Shown: positions 13,718-34,458 of the stretch, one piece after another
Layout: every line of letters starts with the position of its first letter
Position numbering within the stretch: position 1 is the first letter of the stretch
Assembly (NCBI RefSeq): GCF_024808875.1
Contig: NZ_JANUCT010000010.1
Span: forward strand, 1 to 64,000
Source: Methylohalomonas lacus
Lineage (GTDB): Bacteria; Pseudomonadota; Gammaproteobacteria; Methylohalomonadales; Methylohalomonadaceae
Direction: 5' to 3'
Length of the DNA stretch: 64,000 nucleotides
Program-made: the position numbers and the translations under genes
The notes under the pieces: generated by a model
What the model was told of the DNA's origin: nothing
Databases searched by the model: none
The model's input: the letters and a program-made list of their open reading frames with translations, nothing else

Positions 13718-13791
13718 TGGGGGATCGTCTAATGGTAGGACAACGGACTCTGACTCCGTCAGTGGAGGTTCGAATCCTCCTCCCCCAGCCA
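13718..13791 (+). tRNA. tRNA-Gln (anticodon CTG)
   Basis: The acceptor stem TGGGGGA (13718-13724) pairs with TCCCCCA (13781-13787), followed by G and an encoded CCA. The anticodon arm is ACGGA-CTCTGAC-TCCGT with anticodon CTG, reading CAG. The T arm is GGAGG-TTCGAAT-CCTCC. The D arm contains AATGGTAGG. It lies 36 bases behind rpsI and may share its transcript. Confidence 0.97.
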
Positions 13792-14626: not shown

Positions 14627-15577
14627 TTAATCCAGCGGCGCAATAGACGTGCGCGCAAATTCCAGCCGTTCACCTACCGTTTTCAGCTCGGCGGCGTGCG
14701 TCCTGATCAGTTCCAGCCGATGCGACAGTCCCATGCGGTTCGCTATCTGTATATTCAGTCCCGGGCGGGCATTCATTTCCAGTACCATTGGGCCAAGATT
14801 CTTGTCGAGCACCATGTCGACGCCGAAATACCCCAGACCGGTCAGCTCGTAGCAGCGCGCGGCAATATCCATAAGCTCCTGCCAATGCGGCACCTGCACG
14901 TCGGTTATCGGCGCATTGGTATCGGGATGGCGATCGATGACATCATTCTTGAACACCGCTGTCATGGTTATACCCGTAGCCAGGTCAACCCCGGCACCAA
15001 TGGCGCCCTGGTGCAGGTTGGCCTTGCCATCTGAAGCACTCGTGGGTAATCGCATCATCGCCATGACCGGCACGCCCATGAAGATAATGATGCGCACGTC
15101 CGGTACACCCTGAAAACTGATCGGATCGAACACCGGATCAAATTTGACCCGGTATTCGATAATGGCCTTGTCATTGTGGCCACCGAGACTGTAGAGCCCG
15201 CTGAGAATATTCGAGACCTGATGACCCATTTCCTGACTGGTCATGAGTTTGCCGCTGGCCTTGCGATAGCGATCGCCGACCCGGCCGGTAATGACGATAA
15301 TACCGTCACCACCGGTACCCTGTGCAGGTTTGATGACAAAATCGCGGTAATGCGACAGGTAACTGTTCAATTCGGAAATCTGGTGCTCGATTTCAACCAC
15401 ACCATAAAGTTCGGGCACGCGCAGACCGGCTTCAAGCATGATCTTCTTGGTCTGCAGCTTGTCGTCAACAAGCGGATATAGACTGCGCGAATTGTGCATC
15501 AGGGTGTAGTTGCAGTTACGCTCATTGATACCGAGAACACCGGCTTCACGCAGCTGTCTGGGCGTGGCAAATATCAT
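14627..15577 (-). CDS. Alpha-L-glutamate ligase-like ATP-grasp protein
   Basis: A 316-residue ATP-grasp enzyme related to RimK. Visible features are the start of the ATP-binding fold (LVDDKLQTKKIMLEAGLRVP), the glycine-rich loop FVIKPAQGTGGDGIIVI, and the metal/ATP site VLEMNARPGLNIQIANRMG. Such enzymes join an amino acid, often glutamate, to a carboxyl group of a protein or peptide. It overlaps the stop of the upstream 7-helix gene by 4 bases (ATGA), so the two are translationally coupled. The substrate is unknown; its partners suggest an envelope-related target. Confidence 0.85.
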   Translation of the reverse strand: MIFATPRQLREAGVLGINERNCNYTLMHNSRSLYPLVDDKLQTKKIMLEAGLRVPELYGVVEIEHQISELNSYLSHYRDFVIKPAQGTGGDGIIVITGRVGDRYRKASGKLMTSQEMGHQVSNILSGLYSLGGHNDKAIIEYRVKFDPVFDPISFQGVPDVRIIIFMGVPVMAMMRLPTSASDGKANLHQGAIGAGVDLATGITMTAVFKNDVIDRHPDTNAPITDVQVPHWQELMDIAARCYELTGLGYFGVDMVLDKNLGPMVLEMNARPGLNIQIANRMGLSHRLELIRTHAAELKTVGERLEFARTSIAPLD

Positions 15578-17124
15578 ACGGAGTCTGGCGTACTTGGTCG
15601 GGTTGGCTCAGCCAGGACCTTGAAACGCCGCAGCTCCAGCAAACGGTAGCCGGTATAACGTCCCATCAACAGCAACAGTGCGAGTAATACCAGCAACAGT
15701 TCCGGGAAAACCGTGAACAGGTGCTCCAGGTAACTGTTACTCATGAGCATAAACGCGAGTGCCGCACTCACTAAACTGCCCAGCGCCTGATTGATGGCCT
15801 CACCGGCGCCGCGCTCATCCCAGACAATCGACATGCGCTCGATCGTCATGGTGATGATAACCATGGGAAACAGGGCAATGGACAGACCACTCTCAATGCC
15901 AAAATGATTGGTCAGAATACTGATGGCCATCATCAAAAGGATAACAATGGTCAATACTGCGGCCAGTCTTGGCACCATCAAGAGCTTCAGACGTTCCAGT
16001 GCAAAGCGCATCATCAGGCCGCTCCCGACAACTACAGTAAACAGTATAATGCCCCAAATAAGCTGGGTTTCGCGAAAGGACAAGGCGATAAGCACCGGCA
16101 TGAACGTGCCGAAAGTCTTGAGGCCGATGAAATTGCGCATGATCACCAGCAGGAATGCACCCAGCGGCACCATTAACAGGATCTCATAGACCTGCTGGGT
16201 CGATAGCGGCAGGCTTTGCAACGACATACCCTGCAATACCGGACTCATAAAACCCGTTCGCGCGGTCGCCGCCTCTACAGCCTCACGCTCCAGTTTCAGC
16301 GTCGTAATATCGGCTTTGGCGTTATCTCCGCCATTAACCTCGATCAGCGGCTGACGGCCCTGCCAGAAGACAAGAAAATTGTCGGGCAAACCAGCCTGGC
16401 CGGTCTGCGGATCGAAAGCCCGCCAACGGTCCTTTTCAAAAACCTGCAGCCAGGGTGAGATATCCGTCTGGCGACGCTGATCGGTCAGTTCAATACCATG
16501 TATTACGCGGGCTGGCACATAACTGAGTGCCAATAGGCGGGTAATGATATTAATCCGGGCTTCCAGAGACTCGTTGCCATCCAGCAGTAGGCTCATGTTT
16601 TCGTCATCAGGATTGTTGGCGAGCCGCACCAGCTGGGCAACGAGCGTATCCAGATCGGCGGACTTCTGTTGCGCCGACTGCAGGATATCCTTGGCCACCT
16701 CGAACTCGGCGCCTTCAAAACCGTGGTCACGCGTCTCCGGCGGCTCACGCAGGACATTTTCGGCTTCGCTTGCGGTAAACCGCTCGACCGTGGCGCGGTA
16801 ATACAGCGTCTGTGAACCACTGGCGGTACGAATCGACCAGACAGCGCGACGGTTGCCGTTCTCGCGCTGGGTTGTCAGGCCATAGCCGCGCGAAACGAAA
16901 TTCTCGTCAAGAATGGCAAAATTGCTCGAATTGTTCGGTACAAACAATGATGCCTTGATACCGCGGTCCCGGGCATCGAAATTCACCTTGACTTCGATCT
17001 GCCATAAATCAGCTGTGGTTCCCGGAATCACGGGATAGCCCATGTAGATCCATTTATAACAGAAGAATGCCGCGCCAATGAACGCGAGTATCCCTGCCAG
17101 CCAGAGCAGTGGTGCCTTACTCAT
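15574..17124 (-). CDS. Inactive transglutaminase domain with 7 membrane helices (UUP1-type)
   Basis: A 516-residue membrane protein. One N-terminal helix (about residues 6-26) is followed by a periplasmic region of about 280 residues with a transglutaminase-like fold (ARINIITRLLALSYVPARVIHGIEL) that lacks an evident catalytic Cys-His-Asp set. A block of about seven hydrophobic helices fills residues 310-500. This architecture is known as a companion of RimK-like ligases and retropepsin-like proteases, in line with the genes on both sides. It probably senses or presents a substrate across the inner membrane. The role is inferred. Confidence 0.82.
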   Translation of the reverse strand: MSKAPLLWLAGILAFIGAAFFCYKWIYMGYPVIPGTTADLWQIEVKVNFDARDRGIKASLFVPNNSSNFAILDENFVSRGYGLTTQRENGNRRAVWSIRTASGSQTLYYRATVERFTASEAENVLREPPETRDHGFEGAEFEVAKDILQSAQQKSADLDTLVAQLVRLANNPDDENMSLLLDGNESLEARINIITRLLALSYVPARVIHGIELTDQRRQTDISPWLQVFEKDRWRAFDPQTGQAGLPDNFLVFWQGRQPLIEVNGGDNAKADITTLKLEREAVEAATARTGFMSPVLQGMSLQSLPLSTQQVYEILLMVPLGAFLLVIMRNFIGLKTFGTFMPVLIALSFRETQLIWGIILFTVVVGSGLMMRFALERLKLLMVPRLAAVLTIVILLMMAISILTNHFGIESGLSIALFPMVIITMTIERMSIVWDERGAGEAINQALGSLVSAALAFMLMSNSYLEHLFTVFPELLLVLLALLLLMGRYTGYRLLELRRFKVLAEPTRPSTPDSV

Positions 17125-17129
17125 TACAC

Positions 17130-17660
17130 TCAGTCGTCAATGGATTTACGATCGCAATCCGGTATATGACCATAAGTCGTGGAAGGATCGATAAGAACAT
17201 CATCTTCCATGAACGTACGTCCGACCAGCATGCCCGTAATAAAATTGGAGCGATCGACAAGATTAACCTCGACTTCCTTGTACAAGCGGCCCAGACATAT
17301 ACCCATTTTCACGACAGGCCGGCGTTGAACGCCACCTCCATGCTCTTTGATTTTGACGTTACGTTCCAGCCGCCGCTCTATCGTTTCCCTCTCTTCATTA
17401 TGGTTTTCTGTAACAAAGCGAACCCACTCCTCACCATCACGCTCGAATTCCTCGATCTCGATCGCATGCAGTGATGACGTCTTGGCGCCGCTGTCCAGCT
17501 TCGCCTTGAACTGTAATCCGGACGGATAAACCCTGACATTTTCCTTCCAGCTGTAGATCTGCTGGATGTTGGTATCAGCCTGGAGGTTCGCAACCGACAG
17601 CGACAGCCCCAGAACCAGGGCAGCCATGAGGCCGAAACGAAGAGTCCTGTTATAAAACAT
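17130..17660 (-). CDS. Exported retropepsin-like (ATP-dependent zinc protease family) protein
   Basis: A 176-residue protein of the DUF785/RimB family. The core has the aspartic-protease motif in AKLDSGAKTSSLHA and the second conserved region GRTFMEDDVLIDPSTTYG. With the ATG at 17660 (MFYNRTLRFG) it has a clear signal peptide of about 27 residues, so it is periplasmic. The frame is open up to 17753, but that would place the signal peptide inside the protein. It is the first gene of the three-gene unit, 5 bases before the 7-helix gene. It differs from the cytoplasmic homologue at 33807-34289, which has DTGA and no signal. Confidence 0.82.
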   Translation of the reverse strand: MFYNRTLRFGLMAALVLGLSLSVANLQADTNIQQIYSWKENVRVYPSGLQFKAKLDSGAKTSSLHAIEIEEFERDGEEWVRFVTENHNEERETIERRLERNVKIKEHGGGVQRRPVVKMGICLGRLYKEVEVNLVDRSNFITGMLVGRTFMEDDVLIDPSTTYGHIPDCDRKSIDD

Positions 17661-18431
17661 GCCTGAACCTGCTTGTAATGTATTGTGGATTGAAAACGGG
17701 CTGAAGATGCTCAAGCGATACCGACGCCACGGCATGATCCGAAATCCCGGCAATTATATCTTACAACACGACAGTCAGCAGTGTGGCGATGCAGCGGGAG
17801 CCGGGCAATCCTGCGATATCGGTCACAGTGGTCAGAATTACCGACGCTTCTGGCACTGATCAGCCGGTCAGCCCGGCGCGAGGCCGGGCCTCGCAGCACG
17901 CGACACGCCGTCTCCAGCGGGCCGTGCCCCCGCCCACACAGGCGGCCAAGGCTGTGATGCTAACGCCCGATAATTCCACGTTTGCTTCCGGCAAGGCAAG
18001 CACGCGTGCACCCGACACAGCCAACCTGTCAGCCGACTGTTGCGCTCGTGTACCCACCACGCCCGGCGAAAACCGGACACGGGCCCATAGCCGACAGGCT
18101 GCGCCGTCAGACAATTGGGCGTAAATTTAGTTGCCCGCATACGGACAAATCATGGTCAAAACCGCCCGTAACCGGTCCGCCAGGCTCAGCTTAATGCCCT
18201 TACCTTCAGGACAGCCGCCGGGCGCGCAGAATTACAGCCATTATTGGGGACTAGCGGCTGCAGCGCCGCCCAGGATCAACGCGATTAGCGCAATAAACTC
18301 ATGCAAACGGTATAAAAATTTGCCGGGCTGGTTATCCGGCACGGCTATACGGGTTACCATACGTGGGTATTTAATACCGGACCGCAGATCGTCCGCGACA
18401 GTCAGGCTATCGCCCGTACAAAACCCAGTTG
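17661..18431. other. Long intergenic region before tamA
   Basis: About 770 bases between two divergent units without a convincing gene. Open frames here have irregular composition, no ribosome sites and no recognisable family. The stretch includes GC-rich inverted motifs near 17880 (CCCGGCGCGAGGCCGGGC) and presumably the promoters of both flanking operons. An RNA gene cannot be excluded. Confidence 0.4.
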
Positions 18432-20183
18432 ATGCTAAACCGAATTCTGCTCACCACCTGCCTGTTGCTGACCGTTCTGACAGCGGCCGCCGCGGAAGAC
18501 GACGATACGTCTGCACCCACCGCCGTCGAAGTCCGCTTCAGCGGTGTCAGTAATGCCATCCTCGAAAATGTCAAAGCCAGCGTTAGCCTGCACCGCGAAA
18601 GGGAACGCGACCTGACCGCGACACGCATCCGGTTTCTGCATAGTCGAGCCAGCGACGAGATCCGTAAGGCGCTCAAGGTTTTCGGCTACTATTCGCCCGA
18701 CATCGAGACGAATCTGACACAGACGGAAGACGGCTGGCTGGCCGAATATACAATCGAGCCGGGTAAGCCGGTGACCATCGGCCAGGTCGACATCCGCTTT
18801 AGCGGTGAAGGCGCGGACACCGAAACCTTCGACGAGCTGCGCGCGGACCACCCGTTTCGCCAGGGTGCCCGACTCGAACATCAGACCTACGATAATTACC
18901 GCAACCGTATAGAGCGACGGGCGCGTGAACGCGGCTATTTCGACGCGACTTTCAAGCGCCGCGAAATGCGGGTCGACCCCAAGGCCCGGCGCGCCGATAT
19001 TGTTCTCGAATTCGATACCGGTCCGCGTTACCGTTACGGCCCGGTCAGCTTCAGCGAGACACCGCTGGCACCGGATTTCCTGCGCAATTACCTGCCGTTT
19101 GCCGAGGGCGATCCCTACGACAGCCGCGATCCGCTCAAACTGCGTGAACGACTGATCGACAGCGACATGTTCAGCTCGGTCAATGTGCGTCCGGATGAAA
19201 CCGCCGGTGACGATCTAGAAGTTCCGGTCGACGTCGAGCTCGAACCCCGCAAACCGAACCGGTACACCGCTGGCGTCGGATTTGCCACCGACACCGGCCC
19301 ACGGCTGCGACTCGGCTGGGAGGCACGCTACCTGAACGAGCGCGGTCACCGTTTCGATTCGGAACTGCGGCTGTCGCCGGTGACAAGCACGCTCAGCGGC
19401 ACGTATTTAATGCCCTATTTCCGTGATCGCGACGCCGACGTCGGCGTGCGCGGCTCACTTACCAATGAAGACACGGATACCTCGAAAAGCCGCAGTGGCC
19501 AGGCCACCCTGTTCCAGAACACCAGCCGCTGGGGCTGGAACGAAACGCTGTCGGCCTCCTACCTGGTGGAGGACTTCGAGGTCGCCAATGACAGCGATAC
19601 CACCAAGCTGTTCATCCCCGGCGCCAGCTGGTGGCGAAGCTGGAGCGATGATCCCATATATGCCCGGCGCGGCGGCCGCCTGAGCCTGGACCTGAAAGGT
19701 GCCGCCGAGCCGTTGCTGTCCGACACCTCGTTTATCCAGGCGACGGTTTCCGGCAAATACGTACGCGCGCTGGGCTGGCGCAATCGCCTGCTGGTACGCG
19801 TCAAGCTGGGCGCCACCGAGGTCACCGACTTCAGCAAGCTGCCCGCGTCGCTGCGCTATTTCGCCGGTGGTGACAACAGCATTCGCGGCTTCGGCTATCA
19901 GACCCTGGGCCCGGAAAATGATGACGGCGAAGTCGTCGGCGGCCGCTATCTGTTCGTTGGCAGCATCGAATACGAACAGTTCGTCTACAAGGACTACGGT
20001 GTCGCCACCTTTGTCGACTTCGGTAACGCGATGAGCAGTTTCTCCGATCCACTTGAGGTCGGCGCCGGCGTCGGCCTGCGCTGGCTGTCGCCGGTGGGCC
20101 TCATCAAGGTGGACGTCGCTGCAGGCGTGACCGCGGAAGACACGCCACTGCGACTGCATATTTCCCTGGGGGCGGATCTGTGA
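18432..20183 (+). CDS. tamA: Outer membrane assembly protein TamA
   Basis: A 583-residue Omp85-family barrel protein. A signal peptide (LLTTCLLLTVLTAAAA) leads three POTRA-like domains (about residues 30-270), then a 16-strand-type barrel. The loop-6 signature of the BamA/TamA family is seen as YFAGGDNSIRGFGYQ. TamA works with TamB in inserting some outer-membrane proteins and in lipid transport. The start is the ATG at 18432, with an in-frame TTG just before it as alternative. The stop overlaps the tamB start by 4 bases (GTGA). Confidence 0.95.
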   Translation: MLNRILLTTCLLLTVLTAAAAEDDDTSAPTAVEVRFSGVSNAILENVKASVSLHRERERDLTATRIRFLHSRASDEIRKALKVFGYYSPDIETNLTQTEDGWLAEYTIEPGKPVTIGQVDIRFSGEGADTETFDELRADHPFRQGARLEHQTYDNYRNRIERRARERGYFDATFKRREMRVDPKARRADIVLEFDTGPRYRYGPVSFSETPLAPDFLRNYLPFAEGDPYDSRDPLKLRERLIDSDMFSSVNVRPDETAGDDLEVPVDVELEPRKPNRYTAGVGFATDTGPRLRLGWEARYLNERGHRFDSELRLSPVTSTLSGTYLMPYFRDRDADVGVRGSLTNEDTDTSKSRSGQATLFQNTSRWGWNETLSASYLVEDFEVANDSDTTKLFIPGASWWRSWSDDPIYARRGGRLSLDLKGAAEPLLSDTSFIQATVSGKYVRALGWRNRLLVRVKLGATEVTDFSKLPASLRYFAGGDNSIRGFGYQTLGPENDDGEVVGGRYLFVGSIEYEQFVYKDYGVATFVDFGNAMSSFSDPLEVGAGVGLRWLSPVGLIKVDVAAGVTAEDTPLRLHISLGADL

Positions 20184-23100
20184 AAGTCCTGAAAGCATTT
20201 CTGCTCGGCCTCGCCACACTGCTTCTGCTGCTGGTCATCGCCGCGGGCCTGCTCACCGCGACGACCGGCGGTCTGCGCACGGCGGTCGGCCTCGCCCAGC
20301 AGTTCGCCCCCGGTGAACTGGACGTGCAGGCGATCGACGGCCGCTTGCTCGACCGCTTCCGGTTCGGCGAACTGCGCTACCGTGCCGGTGAACTGGACGT
20401 GCATCTTGTGAACTTCGAGTTCGCCTGGCGACCGGCAGCGTTGATTGAGGCGAATCTGGACATCGACCGACTTGCCGCCGACAGCATCGCGATCACCCTG
20501 CCACCGACGGAAACGGACGCTGACACCGGCGGTGCCATCGAACTGCCGCTGACCGTACGATTACGACAACTGGATGTGGCGCGCCTGCAAATCGACAGCC
20601 AGATCCTGCATGACATCCAGCTGCGCGCCCATAGTGTCAACGATACGCTGTTCATCGAGCACTTCAGCCTGCAGGGCGAAATTGACGACATCGCAGTTAA
20701 ACTCAACGCCAGCGGCCAGGCCGCGATCAACCCGCCATGGTCCCACACCCTGCAGGCCGAATTTGAGCTGCAGCTGCCCGACCAGCCGGTCATCGCCGGG
20801 CGCATCGACAGCCAGGGCGATGCCGCTGAAGTCATCGCCGGGCTGACCCTGACCGAACCGGAACAAGTTGAAGCCAGCCTGACGGCGCGTAACCTGCTGG
20901 ATGCGCCCAGCTGGCAGGCAACGCTGGCGACCCGCGACGCCGATCTGTCGCCGTGGCTGGACTCGGCGACAAGCCTGACGGCCCGCCTTGAGGCTGACGG
21001 CAGCGCCGAACGCATCAACGCCCGACTCGACGGCGAACTGCAGGGCGCGATCAACGAAACCCTGAACCTGGACACGGCACTACGGCTTGATCCGGACGAG
21101 CCGTCGATCACCCTGGACAAACTGCAGGTCGACAACCCGACGCGCGACCTAGCCCTGACGCTTGCCGGCGACGTCCATTACGGCGACCAACCCGCGGTCG
21201 ATGTCAGCGGCGACTGGTCGCTGGCACAACCGCAGCCGGCCAGCGGCCGCCTCAGTGTCAGCGGCGGGCTCGATGACTATCGCCTGCAGCTGAGCGCGGA
21301 CAGCCCGCAACCGATCGCCTCCAGCTGGCAACTGGATGCCCATGGCGACGGCCAGTCGCTGACGATCGACAAGCTGCACGGCCAGCTGGCACAGGGACGC
21401 CTGCAGGCGACAGGCGACGTGAACTGGCAGGAGGTGCCGACATTTCGGCTCGACGGCGACTGGCAGGACATTGTCATTCCCGGCAGTGACGAGAAGGCGG
21501 CACTGCGCTCGCCGCAGGGCACTTTCAACCTGCAGGGCGACCTGGAAAACTATCGCCTGACCAGCAGCGGCCGGCTGGCGGGCGCGCAAGTACCGGCCAC
21601 CGACTGGCAACTGCGCGCCAGCGGCGACCAGTCTCACATTGATATTGAAGCGCTGACGCTGGGCCTGCTCGACGGCCGGGTCAACGTTCAGGGCCGTGCC
21701 GGCTGGGCGGACGGCACACTGGATGCAAGCGCCGACGTCCGACTCGACGCCATCGACCCGGGCAGACACTGGCCGGACTGGTCCGGTCGACTGAACGGCG
21801 GCAGCCGCGTCCACTTTCAACAGCCGGCGGGCGGTGACTGGCAGGCCGAACTGGAAGACCTGCAAATCGACGGCCAGCTGCGCGGCTATCCACTAACCGC
21901 CAGTGGCGCTGCCGTGATCGAAGCGGACCGCTACCACATCAAGGCGTTGCAGCTCCAGGTCGCCGACTCGACATTGCGTGCCGACGGCCGTCTGGGCCGC
22001 GACAGCGAAGTCGACTTCGAGTTGAATTCACCGGACCTGGCCCAGCTGCTGCCCGACGCCGGCGGTGAATTGCGGGCGCAGGGCGAGGTTTCCGGAGACT
22101 ACCTCGCCCCGGCCGTCACGGCGACGATCCGTGCGCGGCAGGTGCAGACACCCTGGCTGAGCGTTGTCGAACTCGACGCCGAGGCGGATGTAAACACCGG
22201 CAGTAATCGCTTCGCACTGTCGCTGAACGCGCGCGAACTGCAACGCGATGACCAGCTCATCGAACAGCTTACCCTGACCAGCGACGGCCAGTTGCGCGAA
22301 CACACGCTGGCACTGGATGTACAAATGCCCGAGCGCCAGCTGACCATCGCCGGCAGCGGCGGCTGGAACGAACAACGCTGGGCGCTGGCCCTCGACGAGG
22401 GCACATACAACGACACCATCGCCGGTCGCTGGCAACTCGATCCCCCCTTACGATTGAACGTCAGCCGCGAGCATGTCGATCTGCCGGAACACTGCTGGCG
22501 CCAGCAGCCTGCCGCACTGTGCCTGGCCGGCAACTGGCAGGCGGGCGCTGACTGGTCAGGACAGCTCGACCTGAACAACTACCGTATCGATACGGCAAGT
22601 GACAATGTCGAGCTGGAAAAAGTGCCGCCGGTCAAGGCTGACCTGGCCGTGTCGCTGCAGGTCAGCGGCAACGCCGACCAGCTCCATGATGCCCGCGGCC
22701 ACATCCACCTGGATGATATCCGCGTGACAACCGACGCGGAAACCGAGATGCACATCAGCCAGCTGCACACCGAACTTGAAGGCAACGGCGATGACGGACT
22801 GACACTAACGCTGGACGGCCGTTTCGACAAACCGGCGCCCGGCAAACTGTCCGGCCGGCTGCAGACCGGCGCGCTGCGATTCGACCGCATCGATGAAACC
22901 ACATTGTCCGGCGATCTCAATGCGAATGTCGACAACCTCAAGCCGCTGCTGGCGCTGTACCCGCGCTTTGTCGCCAAACAGGCCGGCCTCCAGGCCGACT
23001 TCACGGTCAGCGGTAACATCGGCAGTCCGGCACTGGACGGTAACCTGAGCCTGAGAGCGAGCGATTTCGGTGTGCCGGAGCTGGGCATCACGTTAAGCAC

Positions 23101-24187
23101 GCTGGAACTCGATGTTCGCGGCCAGCCGGAACAGGGACTCAGCCTGGAAGGCCGCGCACAAAGCGGTCCCGGCCAGCTCGACATCAACGGCCAGGTAGCG
23201 ATGCAGGCGGGCGCCATCGTGGTACCGGGCCTCACGATCCAGGGTGAGGAGTTCAGACTTTTGAACCTGCCCGATATAACCGCGCTGGCCTCACCGGATT
23301 TGCAGATCGAGTTTCGCGACAATCTCCTGAAAGTGCGCGGCCAGGTGCTGATACCGGAAGCGCTGATACAGCCATTCGGCGCACCGGGGAGCATTCCCGT
23401 CTCCAGCGACGAGGTCATCGTCAGCGACGCGGACGGTGTGCCGGACGCCGGCATCGATATAGATGCGCGCGTGCGCGTCGAACTCGGCGAACGGATACGC
23501 ATCGAGGGCAAGGGCTTCGAAAGCCGGCTGACCGGCGCCCTGGATGTAAACCAGACGCCGGGCAAACCGGCGACAGCCAGCGGCGAACTGCGCCTGGTTG
23601 ATGGTGCCTACGCGGCGTACGGCCAGGATCTGACCATCCAGACCGGCGAGATCATCTTCACCAACCAGCCCATCGACAACCCGGCCCTGAACATACGCGC
23701 GGTACGCAAGGTCGACAATGTCACCGCCGGTATCGCGGTGTCCGGTACGGCCCAGCAACCGCAGACGCAACTGTTCTCGACGCCGTCCATGCCGGAGGCG
23801 GACATACTCTCGTATATCGTGACCGGCCGGCCGTTAAGTGGTGCCGGATCCGGTGACGGTAACGCGTTATTGAACGCCGCGGCCAACCTCGGACTGAAAC
23901 GCACCGAATCACTGCAACAGACCATTGCCGATACTTTCGGCATCGATACGCTGAGCGTCGACACCGGCACCACCAGCAGCGGCGAGGTCGACGCCAAACT
24001 CACCGTCGGCAAGTACCTGGCGCCGAATCTCTACATCAGCTATGGCGCCGGTCTGGTCGATGCGGCCGCCAATACGGTGAAGTTGCGCTATGAAATAAAC
24101 CGCCATCTTTCGCTGGAGGCCGAACAGGGTACCGGCACCGGCGTCGATCTCCTTTACCAGATCGAAAGCGGCAGTCCGTGGGACTGA
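20180..24187 (+). CDS. tamB: Translocation and assembly module protein TamB
   Basis: A 1335-residue AsmA/VPS13-like bridge protein between inner and outer membrane. It starts with GTG at 20180 inside the tamA stop. An N-terminal membrane helix (VLKAFLLGLATLLLLLVIAA) is followed by about 900 residues of repetitive beta structure and the conserved DUF490 C-terminal domain (GEIIFTNQPIDNPALNIRA, ILSYIVTGRPLSG, LTVGKYLAPNLYISYGAGL). Size matches the family (about 1250-1350). It forms the Tam complex with TamA. Confidence 0.95.
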   Translation: MKVLKAFLLGLATLLLLLVIAAGLLTATTGGLRTAVGLAQQFAPGELDVQAIDGRLLDRFRFGELRYRAGELDVHLVNFEFAWRPAALIEANLDIDRLAADSIAITLPPTETDADTGGAIELPLTVRLRQLDVARLQIDSQILHDIQLRAHSVNDTLFIEHFSLQGEIDDIAVKLNASGQAAINPPWSHTLQAEFELQLPDQPVIAGRIDSQGDAAEVIAGLTLTEPEQVEASLTARNLLDAPSWQATLATRDADLSPWLDSATSLTARLEADGSAERINARLDGELQGAINETLNLDTALRLDPDEPSITLDKLQVDNPTRDLALTLAGDVHYGDQPAVDVSGDWSLAQPQPASGRLSVSGGLDDYRLQLSADSPQPIASSWQLDAHGDGQSLTIDKLHGQLAQGRLQATGDVNWQEVPTFRLDGDWQDIVIPGSDEKAALRSPQGTFNLQGDLENYRLTSSGRLAGAQVPATDWQLRASGDQSHIDIEALTLGLLDGRVNVQGRAGWADGTLDASADVRLDAIDPGRHWPDWSGRLNGGSRVHFQQPAGGDWQAELEDLQIDGQLRGYPLTASGAAVIEADRYHIKALQLQVADSTLRADGRLGRDSEVDFELNSPDLAQLLPDAGGELRAQGEVSGDYLAPAVTATIRARQVQTPWLSVVELDAEADVNTGSNRFALSLNARELQRDDQLIEQLTLTSDGQLREHTLALDVQMPERQLTIAGSGGWNEQRWALALDEGTYNDTIAGRWQLDPPLRLNVSREHVDLPEHCWRQQPAALCLAGNWQAGADWSGQLDLNNYRIDTASDNVELEKVPPVKADLAVSLQVSGNADQLHDARGHIHLDDIRVTTDAETEMHISQLHTELEGNGDDGLTLTLDGRFDKPAPGKLSGRLQTGALRFDRIDETTLSGDLNANVDNLKPLLALYPRFVAKQAGLQADFTVSGNIGSPALDGNLSLRASDFGVPELGITLSTLELDVRGQPEQGLSLEGRAQSGPGQLDINGQVAMQAGAIVVPGLTIQGEEFRLLNLPDITALASPDLQIEFRDNLLKVRGQVLIPEALIQPFGAPGSIPVSSDEVIVSDADGVPDAGIDIDARVRVELGERIRIEGKGFESRLTGALDVNQTPGKPATASGELRLVDGAYAAYGQDLTIQTGEIIFTNQPIDNPALNIRAVRKVDNVTAGIAVSGTAQQPQTQLFSTPSMPEADILSYIVTGRPLSGAGSGDGNALLNAAANLGLKRTESLQQTIADTFGIDTLSVDTGTTSSGEVDAKLTVGKYLAPNLYISYGAGLVDAAANTVKLRYEINRHLSLEAEQGTGTGVDLLYQIESGSPWD

Positions 24188-32896: not shown

Positions 32897-33802
32897 CTAG
32901 CCCTGCCCCCGGGTCTTGGTCTTGCCGCGCACGCCGTTCTTTTCAATGAACTGGATAACCTGGGTGCCAATGTCCTTGTTGGTGATATTCTCGATGCCCT
33001 GCAGCCCGGGCGATGAGTTGACTTCCATCACCACCGGCCCGTGATTGGCGCGCAGAATATCGACACCACAGACATTGAGCCCCATGATCTTGGCCGCGCG
33101 CACTGCAGTGGAACGTTCCTCAGGGGTGATCTTCACCAGGTTGGCACTGCCGCCGCGATGAATATTGGAGCGGAACTCGCCGTCCTTGCCCTGGCGCTTC
33201 ATCGCTGCAACGACCTTGTCGCCGATGACGAAACAGCGCAAATCGGCACCGCCGGCTTCCTTGATGTATTCCTGCACCAGGACCTCGGCCTTGAGGCCGA
33301 GGAAGGATTCGATCACGGTCTCGGCCGCCTTGCTGGTTTCCGCCAGCACGACACCGATACCCTGGGTACCGGACAGCAGCTTGATGACCACCGGCGGCCC
33401 GCCGACCATGCGTAACAAGTCCTCGATATCGTCGGGCTTGTTGGCAAAGCCGGTCACCGGCAGGCCGATGCCACGCCGCGCCAGCAACTGGGTGGCGCGT
33501 AGCTTGTCGCGCGAACGGGTGATGGCCACCGACTCGTTCAGCGGGTAGACGCCCATCATCTCAAACTGGCGCAGCACTGCGGCACCGTAAAACGTTACCG
33601 AGGCCCCGATGCGCGGAATCACCGCGTCTATATCGGTCAGATCCTTGCCCTTGTAGTGGATGCTGGGCCGGTGCGAGGCGATGCTCATGTAACAGCGCAG
33701 CACGTCGAGGACGACCACCTCGTGGTTGCGCGCTTCAGCAGCCTCGATCAGTCGCCGGGTGGAGTAGAGTTTCGGGTTACGGGACAGGATCGCGATCTTC
33801 AT
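32897..33802 (-). CDS. rimK: Ribosomal protein S6 glutamate ligase-type RimK
   Basis: A 301-residue ATP-grasp ligase. Key motifs are [17 protein letters not shown], the ATP loop [16 protein letters not shown], and the metal-binding [17 protein letters not shown]. coli RimK adds glutamates to the C-terminus of ribosomal protein S6. Length matches (300). It is 4 bases behind rimB, as in the rimABK operon of Pseudomonas, where RimK action on S6 adjusts the proteome. It is related to, but clearly different from, the ligase-like protein at 14627-15577. Confidence 0.93.
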
Positions 33803-33806
33803 AACA

Positions 33807-34289
33807 TCATTCTTCGTCGGGTGTGGTGGATTCGGTCACGGCATAGCTTTTGGCCAGGGCCCTGCCATGCACATAGGACGCTGCCGGATCGACCAGCAGC
33901 TGGCCATGACGGATGCCCTCACGGCCCAGCAGCATACGAAACAGCATGTCGTCGCGGCTGGTCAGCGTAATCTCGACCGACCACTGCCGCTCGGCCAGCT
34001 GCAGCTCCGTCGCTATCACGATGCGCTCTTCGGCATGACCACCGGAGTCGCGTACGGTGCGCCGGTCGATCACCGGGGCAATGCATTCCAGCTCGATATC
34101 GGTACGTTTCTGCAAAGGATGGATGCGGAACCTGACCAGTTCATGACCACCCTCGTTGTAGGTTTCCAGACCGAACGTGTGCAGCGCCGACGTACGCGCG
34201 CCGGTGTCCACCTTGGCCTTGATGGCGGGAATACCCAATCCCGGCAGCGCCAGCCATTCGCGCCAGCCTATCACCGGCCTGGATGTCAT
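33807..34289 (-). CDS. rimB: Cytoplasmic retropepsin-like protease RimB
   Basis: A 160-residue protein of the ATP-dependent zinc protease/DUF785 family. The motif [14 protein letters not shown] has the aspartic-protease DTGA, and [21 protein letters not shown] is the second conserved block. There is no signal peptide, so it is cytoplasmic. The ATG at 34289 is preferred because AGGAG lies 6 bases before it; an in-frame TTG at 34304 overlaps that ribosome site. First gene of rimB-rimK-AstE-like, divergent from a LysR regulator. Confidence 0.88.
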
Positions 34290-34458
34290 GGGCGTCTCCT
34301 GCAAATCGCCACCTGTCGCCGCCTGGCGCAGGATATGCTAACAATAGCTGGGCGGTCTCGTGGGCCGCGTCAGCGCCGCAATAATAACAGCCGGCAAGGA
34401 TACCGCCCGGACCGGCGTTTGAATACCGCTGATCGGCTTTGTGACAGGTTAAATATTG

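Follow-up and report, generated by a model that had tools for sequence, protein, structure and literature searches.

Introduction

The closest described relatives of the three-gene locus discussed here, which lies in a stretch of 64,000 nucleotides of Methylohalomonas lacus DNA (contig NZ_JANUCT010000010.1, positions 1 to 64,000; referred to as the window throughout), are the rlo operon of Pseudomonas aeruginosa and the RimB-RimK pair of the cytoplasm. The rlo operon (rloA, PA14_41690, with rloB and rloC) was described by Lormand et al. in 2025, who reported that RloA cleaves runs of at least eight glutamates in vitro and that a triple deletion of rloA1-3 abolishes growth in low salt, a defect rescued by deletion of rloB or rloC (PMC12239564). 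According to the same source, the rlo genes affect low-salt survival, biofilms and antibiotic tolerance, with phenotypes at low osmolarity, in biofilms and in cell shape, and the locus is suggested to have arisen from the rim locus by addition of RloB (PMC12239564). A literature search returned no later rlo paper and no link between RloB and PgsC beyond this study and screens that hit rlo genes (PMC12096838, PMC7314104). A first interpretation of the window from its letters alone (the sequence-only reading) had called the function of the trio not well established, which overlooks the work in P. aeruginosa but holds for the natural substrate, left open in those parts of the paper that are drawn on here.

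RimB and RimK, in turn, are cytoplasmic enzymes that cut and make poly-alpha-L-glutamate and constitute the glutamylation system of ribosomal protein S6 (PMC11957791). Both systems combine a retropepsin-like peptidase with an ATP-grasp ligase and share polyglutamate chemistry, whereas RimB-RimK is cytoplasmic, does without a membrane protein and includes an N-terminal domain in RimK that is missing from RloC. Amidoligase neighbourhoods of this kind were reportedly first described by Iyer et al. in 2009.

The rlo operon of Methylohalomonas lacus

The trio in the window is an rloA-rloB-rloC operon of the kind already characterised in P. aeruginosa (PMC12239564). Its genes follow each other in this order on the minus strand and encode an exported retropepsin-like aspartic peptidase with a DSG active-site motif (rloA, 17130-17660, 176 aa), a protein of the inner membrane whose transglutaminase domain is degenerate (rloB, 15574-17124, 516 aa) and an ATP-grasp ligase (rloC, 14627-15577, 316 aa). 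A gap of 5 bases separates rloA from rloB and an overlap of 4 bases joins rloB to rloC, both as given by the sequence-only reading, which also had the trio at its correct place. Pfam matches of RloA to PF05618 (126.6 bits), of RloB to PF14400 (160.5 bits) and PF14402 (323.8 bits), and of RloC to PF14397 (320.7 bits) are all far above their cut-offs and therefore not due to chance. Scans for promoters and terminators gave about the same yield as shuffled sequences.

The narrower curated NCBIfam families are a different matter. RloA scores 125.9, 110 and 104.3 bits against RloA3, RloA1 and RloA2, respectively, and reaches none of the cut-offs (210, 280 and 250), nor that of the RimB model (71.1 bits, cut-off 200). 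RloB obtains 485.7 bits against NF052267, a model of the type 'exception' with a cut-off of 900, compared to 1041.5 bits for a locus (L083) placed together with Azotobacter by the RloC tree, and is therefore a homologue outside the narrow named family. RloC, in contrast, passes TIGR02291 (476 bits, cut-off 314.2). Since RloA and RloB of the window fall outside these families of Pseudomonas proteins, assignment of the operon rests on domain content, gene order and TIGR02291; the order, the RloA motifs, the loss of the RloB triad and an RloC above its cut-off were all found in the window.

The correspondence to P. aeruginosa extends beyond the three families and their order: in both organisms, RloA has a signal peptide and an active site, RloB joins an inactive transglutaminase domain to membrane helices, RloC has an ATP-grasp domain, and the genome holds an exported peptidase of the RloA3 type elsewhere as well as a separate rimB-rimK pair. 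Besides the NCBIfam scores, the differences are DSG in the window RloA as opposed to DTG in P. aeruginosa, and one additional exported RloA-like gene seen in the genome as opposed to two.

The N-terminus of RloA (MFYNRTLRFGLMAALVLGLSLSVANLQA, followed by D) resembles a Sec signal peptide, judged by eye and from hydropathy, in line with what had been read from the sequence before. Solved relatives of the protein are 9g58, 9g59 and 2pma. The catalytic Asp is kept in all 110 aligned rows, and the two Arg residues for substrate binding, equated with R114 and R137 of Pseudomonas by our own reading of the alignment, in 110/110 and 109/110 (one row of this alignment, L058, being a RimB), so that the active site of RloA looks intact. 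Two Cys of the window protein occupy the disulfide positions of the exported, periplasmic type; the Cys in a strand and the Cys near the C-terminus recur in 87 of 109 operonic RloA rows. A second exported retropepsin of the genome, encoded on contig C19 (L197, 234-791, minus strand), does pass the NCBIfam RloA3 model at 222.6 bits; by eye, next to it are what we take to be an ACR3-type arsenite transporter gene and a gene for a low-molecular-weight phosphatase.

RloB has no meaningful sequence match among solved structures. Its predicted structure (full model, mean pLDDT 84.9) starts with a membrane helix (residues 4-27), continues with a beta-sandwich and a transglutaminase-like domain (about 139-281) and closes with a bundle of membrane helices (about 305-505). 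The sequence-only reading had placed seven helices after the transglutaminase; a C-terminal domain of multiple membrane helices is indeed there, while the additional helix at the N-terminus had been overlooked. Residues 38-282 of the model resemble the putative cysteine protease 3isr (Z 16.1, rmsd 4.0, 224 aligned), so that the soluble part is predicted to have a genuine fold of the transglutaminase type in which the active site is dead. The positions of the Cys-His-Asp triad are occupied by L-S-D, and PF01841, the model of active transglutaminases, finds no match in this protein even at E 10; the lack of an evident triad had thus been recognised correctly. A likeness of the whole model to AcrB (Z up to 7.0) was within the stated noise of the tool and was discarded.

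Distribution of the operon and relatives with an intact triad

Two samples were compared, namely 299 Pseudomonadota genomes, which contain 48 loci, and a set of named loci made up of the 80 best among 571 confirmed matches, 128 loci in total. RloB (PF14402) is present in 48/299 genomes, and TIGR02291 (E <= 1e-30) in the same 48, as compared by eye. RloC lies directly downstream of RloB at every locus (48/48 and 80/80, or 128/128), and RloA directly upstream at 109/128 (40/48 and 69/80; one of the 11 named loci without it, L099, is cut by a contig end). RloB and RloC are an inseparable core, to which RloA is optional. The sequence-only reading had proposed linkage of the seven-helix protein and the ligase in other genomes as a test, which this pair passes; its conserved trio, however, stands for RloB-RloC only, RloA not being obligate. 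PF05618, which includes RimB, occurs in 98/299 genomes. In four loci of one genome family (f54, L047-L050), an extra and different ATP-grasp-like gene, a weak match to the RloC profile, is located upstream of rloA.

In the alignment of all 128 RloB proteins, the Cys-His-Asp triad is complete in five rows (L053-L057), with Cys at its column of the triad in no other row, His at the respective column in one further row and the entire transglutaminase domain missing from two (L058 and L059). The five intact loci all belong to one genome family (f33; 5 of 74 genomes searched have the gene), and PF01841 is matched in each of them at 55.8-65.2 bits (cut-off 23). They resemble the window in that the same membrane domain is fused to a transglutaminase domain and RloC follows directly in all five, and they differ from it by the triad, the PF01841 match and the lack of RloA, which is found in none of the five loci (0/5). 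PF05618 finds nothing in four of the five genomes and a single match, on another contig, in the fifth (G096). One of these loci (L053) continues with a TPR gene and a beta-barrel-like gene. RloA is likewise missing from both loci without the transglutaminase domain; in one of them (L058, 2340-6594), rimB-rimK is situated about 2 kb upstream of RloB and RloC, so that the two systems adjoin.

A rule by which a locus has either an intact triad or RloA does not hold in this form, given that 12/121 loci with a degenerate triad also lack RloA (1/41 in the genome sample and 11/80 in the named set, one of the latter at a contig end). Fisher tests of triad versus RloA ignore descent, and because the five intact loci form one clade, the combination of an intact triad with no RloA perhaps reflects one event.

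These relatives also bear on the idea of the sequence-only reading that the trio is a sensor-and-process system across the inner membrane. Its processing half is supported by the constant linkage of RloB and RloC and by the suppression of the rloA1-3 phenotype by rloB or rloC deletions (PMC12239564), and for its sensing half neither the present comparisons nor the parts of that source considered here offer evidence. In a more explicit version, RloB would sense envelope stress through the inactive transglutaminase domain and gate RloA or RloC. Five relatives with an intact catalytic triad would be odd for a pure sensor, and a Pfam search detected no signalling domain in the three proteins. Inactive enzyme domains can, on the other hand, serve as binding sensors. 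Induction of the Vibrio cholerae orthologues by VxrB, as reported in the discussion of PMC12239564, would fit as well; altogether, we consider sensing very unlikely.

As to the order of events, a tree of RloC (47 rows) places the clade with an intact triad (support 99/99) outside the clade with a degenerate triad (96/97), with the domain-less pair L058 and L059 further out. The root of this tree lies on a rimK branch of great length, to which the latter pair may be drawn according to a warning of the tool, and a count for the group 'noRloA' was left unused, 30 rows being in no group. The topology suggests that the membrane protein and the ligase are the older core and that RloA joined later, in the lineage that lost the triad. 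Seven RloA-less loci with a degenerate triad also form one clade in the tree (99/93), for which reason RloA was probably lost again in that lineage. An origin with RloB-RloC first differs from the published suggestion of a rlo locus derived from rim by adding RloB (PMC12239564).

Proposed function

RloC looks like an intact ATP-grasp ligase by its conserved residues: the ATP-grasp Lys is present in 128/128 rows, and Asp, Glu, Asn and His in 127/128 each, with a gap in the other row, these being the residues that we take to be catalytic. RloC is related to RimK, the N-terminal domain of which is missing by alignment, and RimK-type structures are matched weakly, best over the C-terminal part of RloC. 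Together with the family matches, the gene order, the exact co-occurrence of RloB with RloC, the intact site and periplasmic-type Cys pair of RloA, its signal-like N-terminus and the triad loss in RloB, this forms the basis of an account towards which we lean slightly: RloC would build a glutamyl chain or adduct, RloB would pass it on or present it on the periplasmic side, and trimming would fall to RloA. Specifically, cytoplasmic RloC would spend ATP on joining glutamates or on adding them to an acceptor, and RloB would carry or present the product through the inner membrane, with the dead transglutaminase domain as a module for binding or guidance in the periplasm. RloA, exported via its own signal peptide, would then cut glutamate-rich chains in the periplasm, so that the product is kept short or recycled; with RloA absent and RloB and RloC at work, the uncut product would harm the envelope. 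The suppression genetics of P. aeruginosa fit such an RloB-RloC product that is harmful when uncut, the in vitro cleavage of polyglutamate by RloA is in favour as well (PMC12239564), and RimB and RimK, as a precedent for the making and cutting of poly-alpha-L-glutamate, lend support by analogy.

Several observations weigh against this account. No product, acceptor or transport is reported for RloB or RloC in the portions of the literature considered. At ten named loci with a degenerate domain (besides L099), RloA is missing, and six of these are in genomes without any PF05618 match, so that RloA is not needed everywhere; the genomes in question are mostly draft assemblies, although Steroidobacter gossypii, among those without PF05618, is listed as a strain and not as a metagenome-assembled genome. 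The membrane domain of RloB, modelled alone (mean pLDDT 80.0), has no convincing structural match, with RnfA at the top (8ahx_A, Z 7.9, rmsd 4.0, 126 aligned) followed by the RnfA-type 7zc6_A (Z 7.0, rmsd 3.6, 126 aligned), both within the stated noise of the tool, and Foldseek returned no match for this model at E <= 0.001. Finally, RloC lacks the N-terminal domain of RimK and belongs to a Pfam family named 'sugar-transfer associated', and may therefore use a substrate other than glutamate.

This last point leads to an alternative that we regard as unlikely, in which the compound ligated by RloC is not glutamate (the acceptor might, for instance, be a sugar or lipid carrier) and the glutamate preference of RloA is incidental to its RimB ancestry. 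The family name, that of the best Pfam match of RloC, and a score of only 19.6 bits against the RimK equivalog model NF007764 (cut-off 331) would agree with it, whereas the near-complete conservation of the polyglutamate-binding Arg residues of RloA would not, and mutation of those residues is reported to block rescue in P. aeruginosa (PMC12239564).

The second alternative shares the glutamate chemistry of the chain-and-trim account and is possible, though not favoured: glutamate tags would be placed on envelope proteins or peptidoglycan via RloC and RloB and removed by RloA, comparable to RimK and RimB on S6. In vitro, RloA cuts polyglutamate both within and at the end of proteins, and phenotypes of the cell-wall type are discussed for P. 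aeruginosa (PMC12239564). Such modification chemistry is moreover present in the organism itself, as a complete rimK-rimB pair is found in the window 16 kb from the rlo operon. The product of rimK (32897-33802, minus strand) exceeds the cut-off of the RimK equivalog (461 bits versus 331), and that of rimB (33807-34304, minus strand) stays below that of the RimB model (134 bits versus 200) and has no signal peptide by eye. With rimK-rimB, the rlo operon and the RloA3-type peptidase, the genome thus has both branches of this chemistry, that of the cytoplasm and that of the envelope, and co-occurrence of rim and rlo is described as usual (PMC12239564). Yet RloC is predicted to be cytoplasmic and acceptors would need to be exported after tagging, no open frame of at least 60 aa in the window contains a run of at least seven E/D, and the authors of PMC12239564 found no genome-encoded polyglutamate target in P. 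aeruginosa, as far as the sections drawn on here go.

The membrane domain of RloB and a possible link to PgsC/CapC

Five residues of the RloB membrane domain are invariant (R330, R373, R386, E429 and R430). As a weak lead only, this domain may be related to PgsC/CapC (PF14102), a subunit of poly-gamma-glutamate synthase. An hhalign comparison of the two scored 23.5, above 449 of 450 column shuffles, and at the level of families CapC reached 25.6 as compared to at most 17.7 for six unrelated membrane families. Single proteins are separated less clearly, with 13.3 to 28.2 for CapC against the RloB profile and up to 21.3 for unrelated membrane proteins (58 tested), and when the CapC profile is used instead, 24.3 is reached by two unrelated proteins. 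An initial comparison based on thin alignments lacked significance, a plain one gave Prob 2.3 and E 0.021, the local alignment covers only 29-40 columns, and the Pfam models of RloB and PgsC/CapC do not match each other's families.

PgsBCA/CapBCA would accordingly share with RloB a membrane subunit with a similar motif pattern and weak profile similarity. Apart from the missing cross-match of the Pfam models, the systems differ in that the rlo ligase is of the ATP-grasp type and that of PgsBCA/CapBCA presumably Mur-type (by eye in L192 and L193). An apparent PF14102 match in one genome (G214) was dismissed as false, the open frame reading as what we take to be a heme A synthase, and scans of viral contigs for PgsC gave no match. 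Elsewhere (L089-L093 and L194-L196), proteins of about 1080 residues with two tandem CapC domains were encountered, usually encoded after a large membrane protein, with a response-regulator-like gene at some of the loci; the copy in L090 ends at a contig end.

A further reading, which we deem doubtful, goes beyond the chain-and-trim account. RloB-RloC would be a second, ATP-grasp-powered polyglutamate synthase-exporter with a membrane subunit distantly related to PgsC/CapC, in which the ancestral catalytic domain of RloB, of the kind still present in family f33, trimmed the polymer and lost its triad after RloA had joined. By the same reading, a RimB-type peptidase would have become RloA by gaining a signal peptide, and the RloB domain would have been left with a binding role, the state represented by the window.

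Neighbouring genes

Divergently from rloA, two genes on the plus strand (18429-24187) resemble by eye what we take to be the outer-membrane assembly pair TamA-TamB. The sole tRNA found by ARAGORN in the window, tRNA-Gln (ctg), is encoded at 13718-13791 on the plus strand.

Implications

What these comparisons add to the known rlo operon is the inseparable RloB-RloC core, the optional nature of RloA and the existence of intact-triad relatives without RloA. They give a direct approach to the question of whether the substance cut by RloA is also the target of the live transglutaminase. Kinship of RloB with PgsC/CapC, if true, would account for the need of a membrane protein in this system, and the synthase-exporter reading, if true, would reverse the published origin of rlo from rim.

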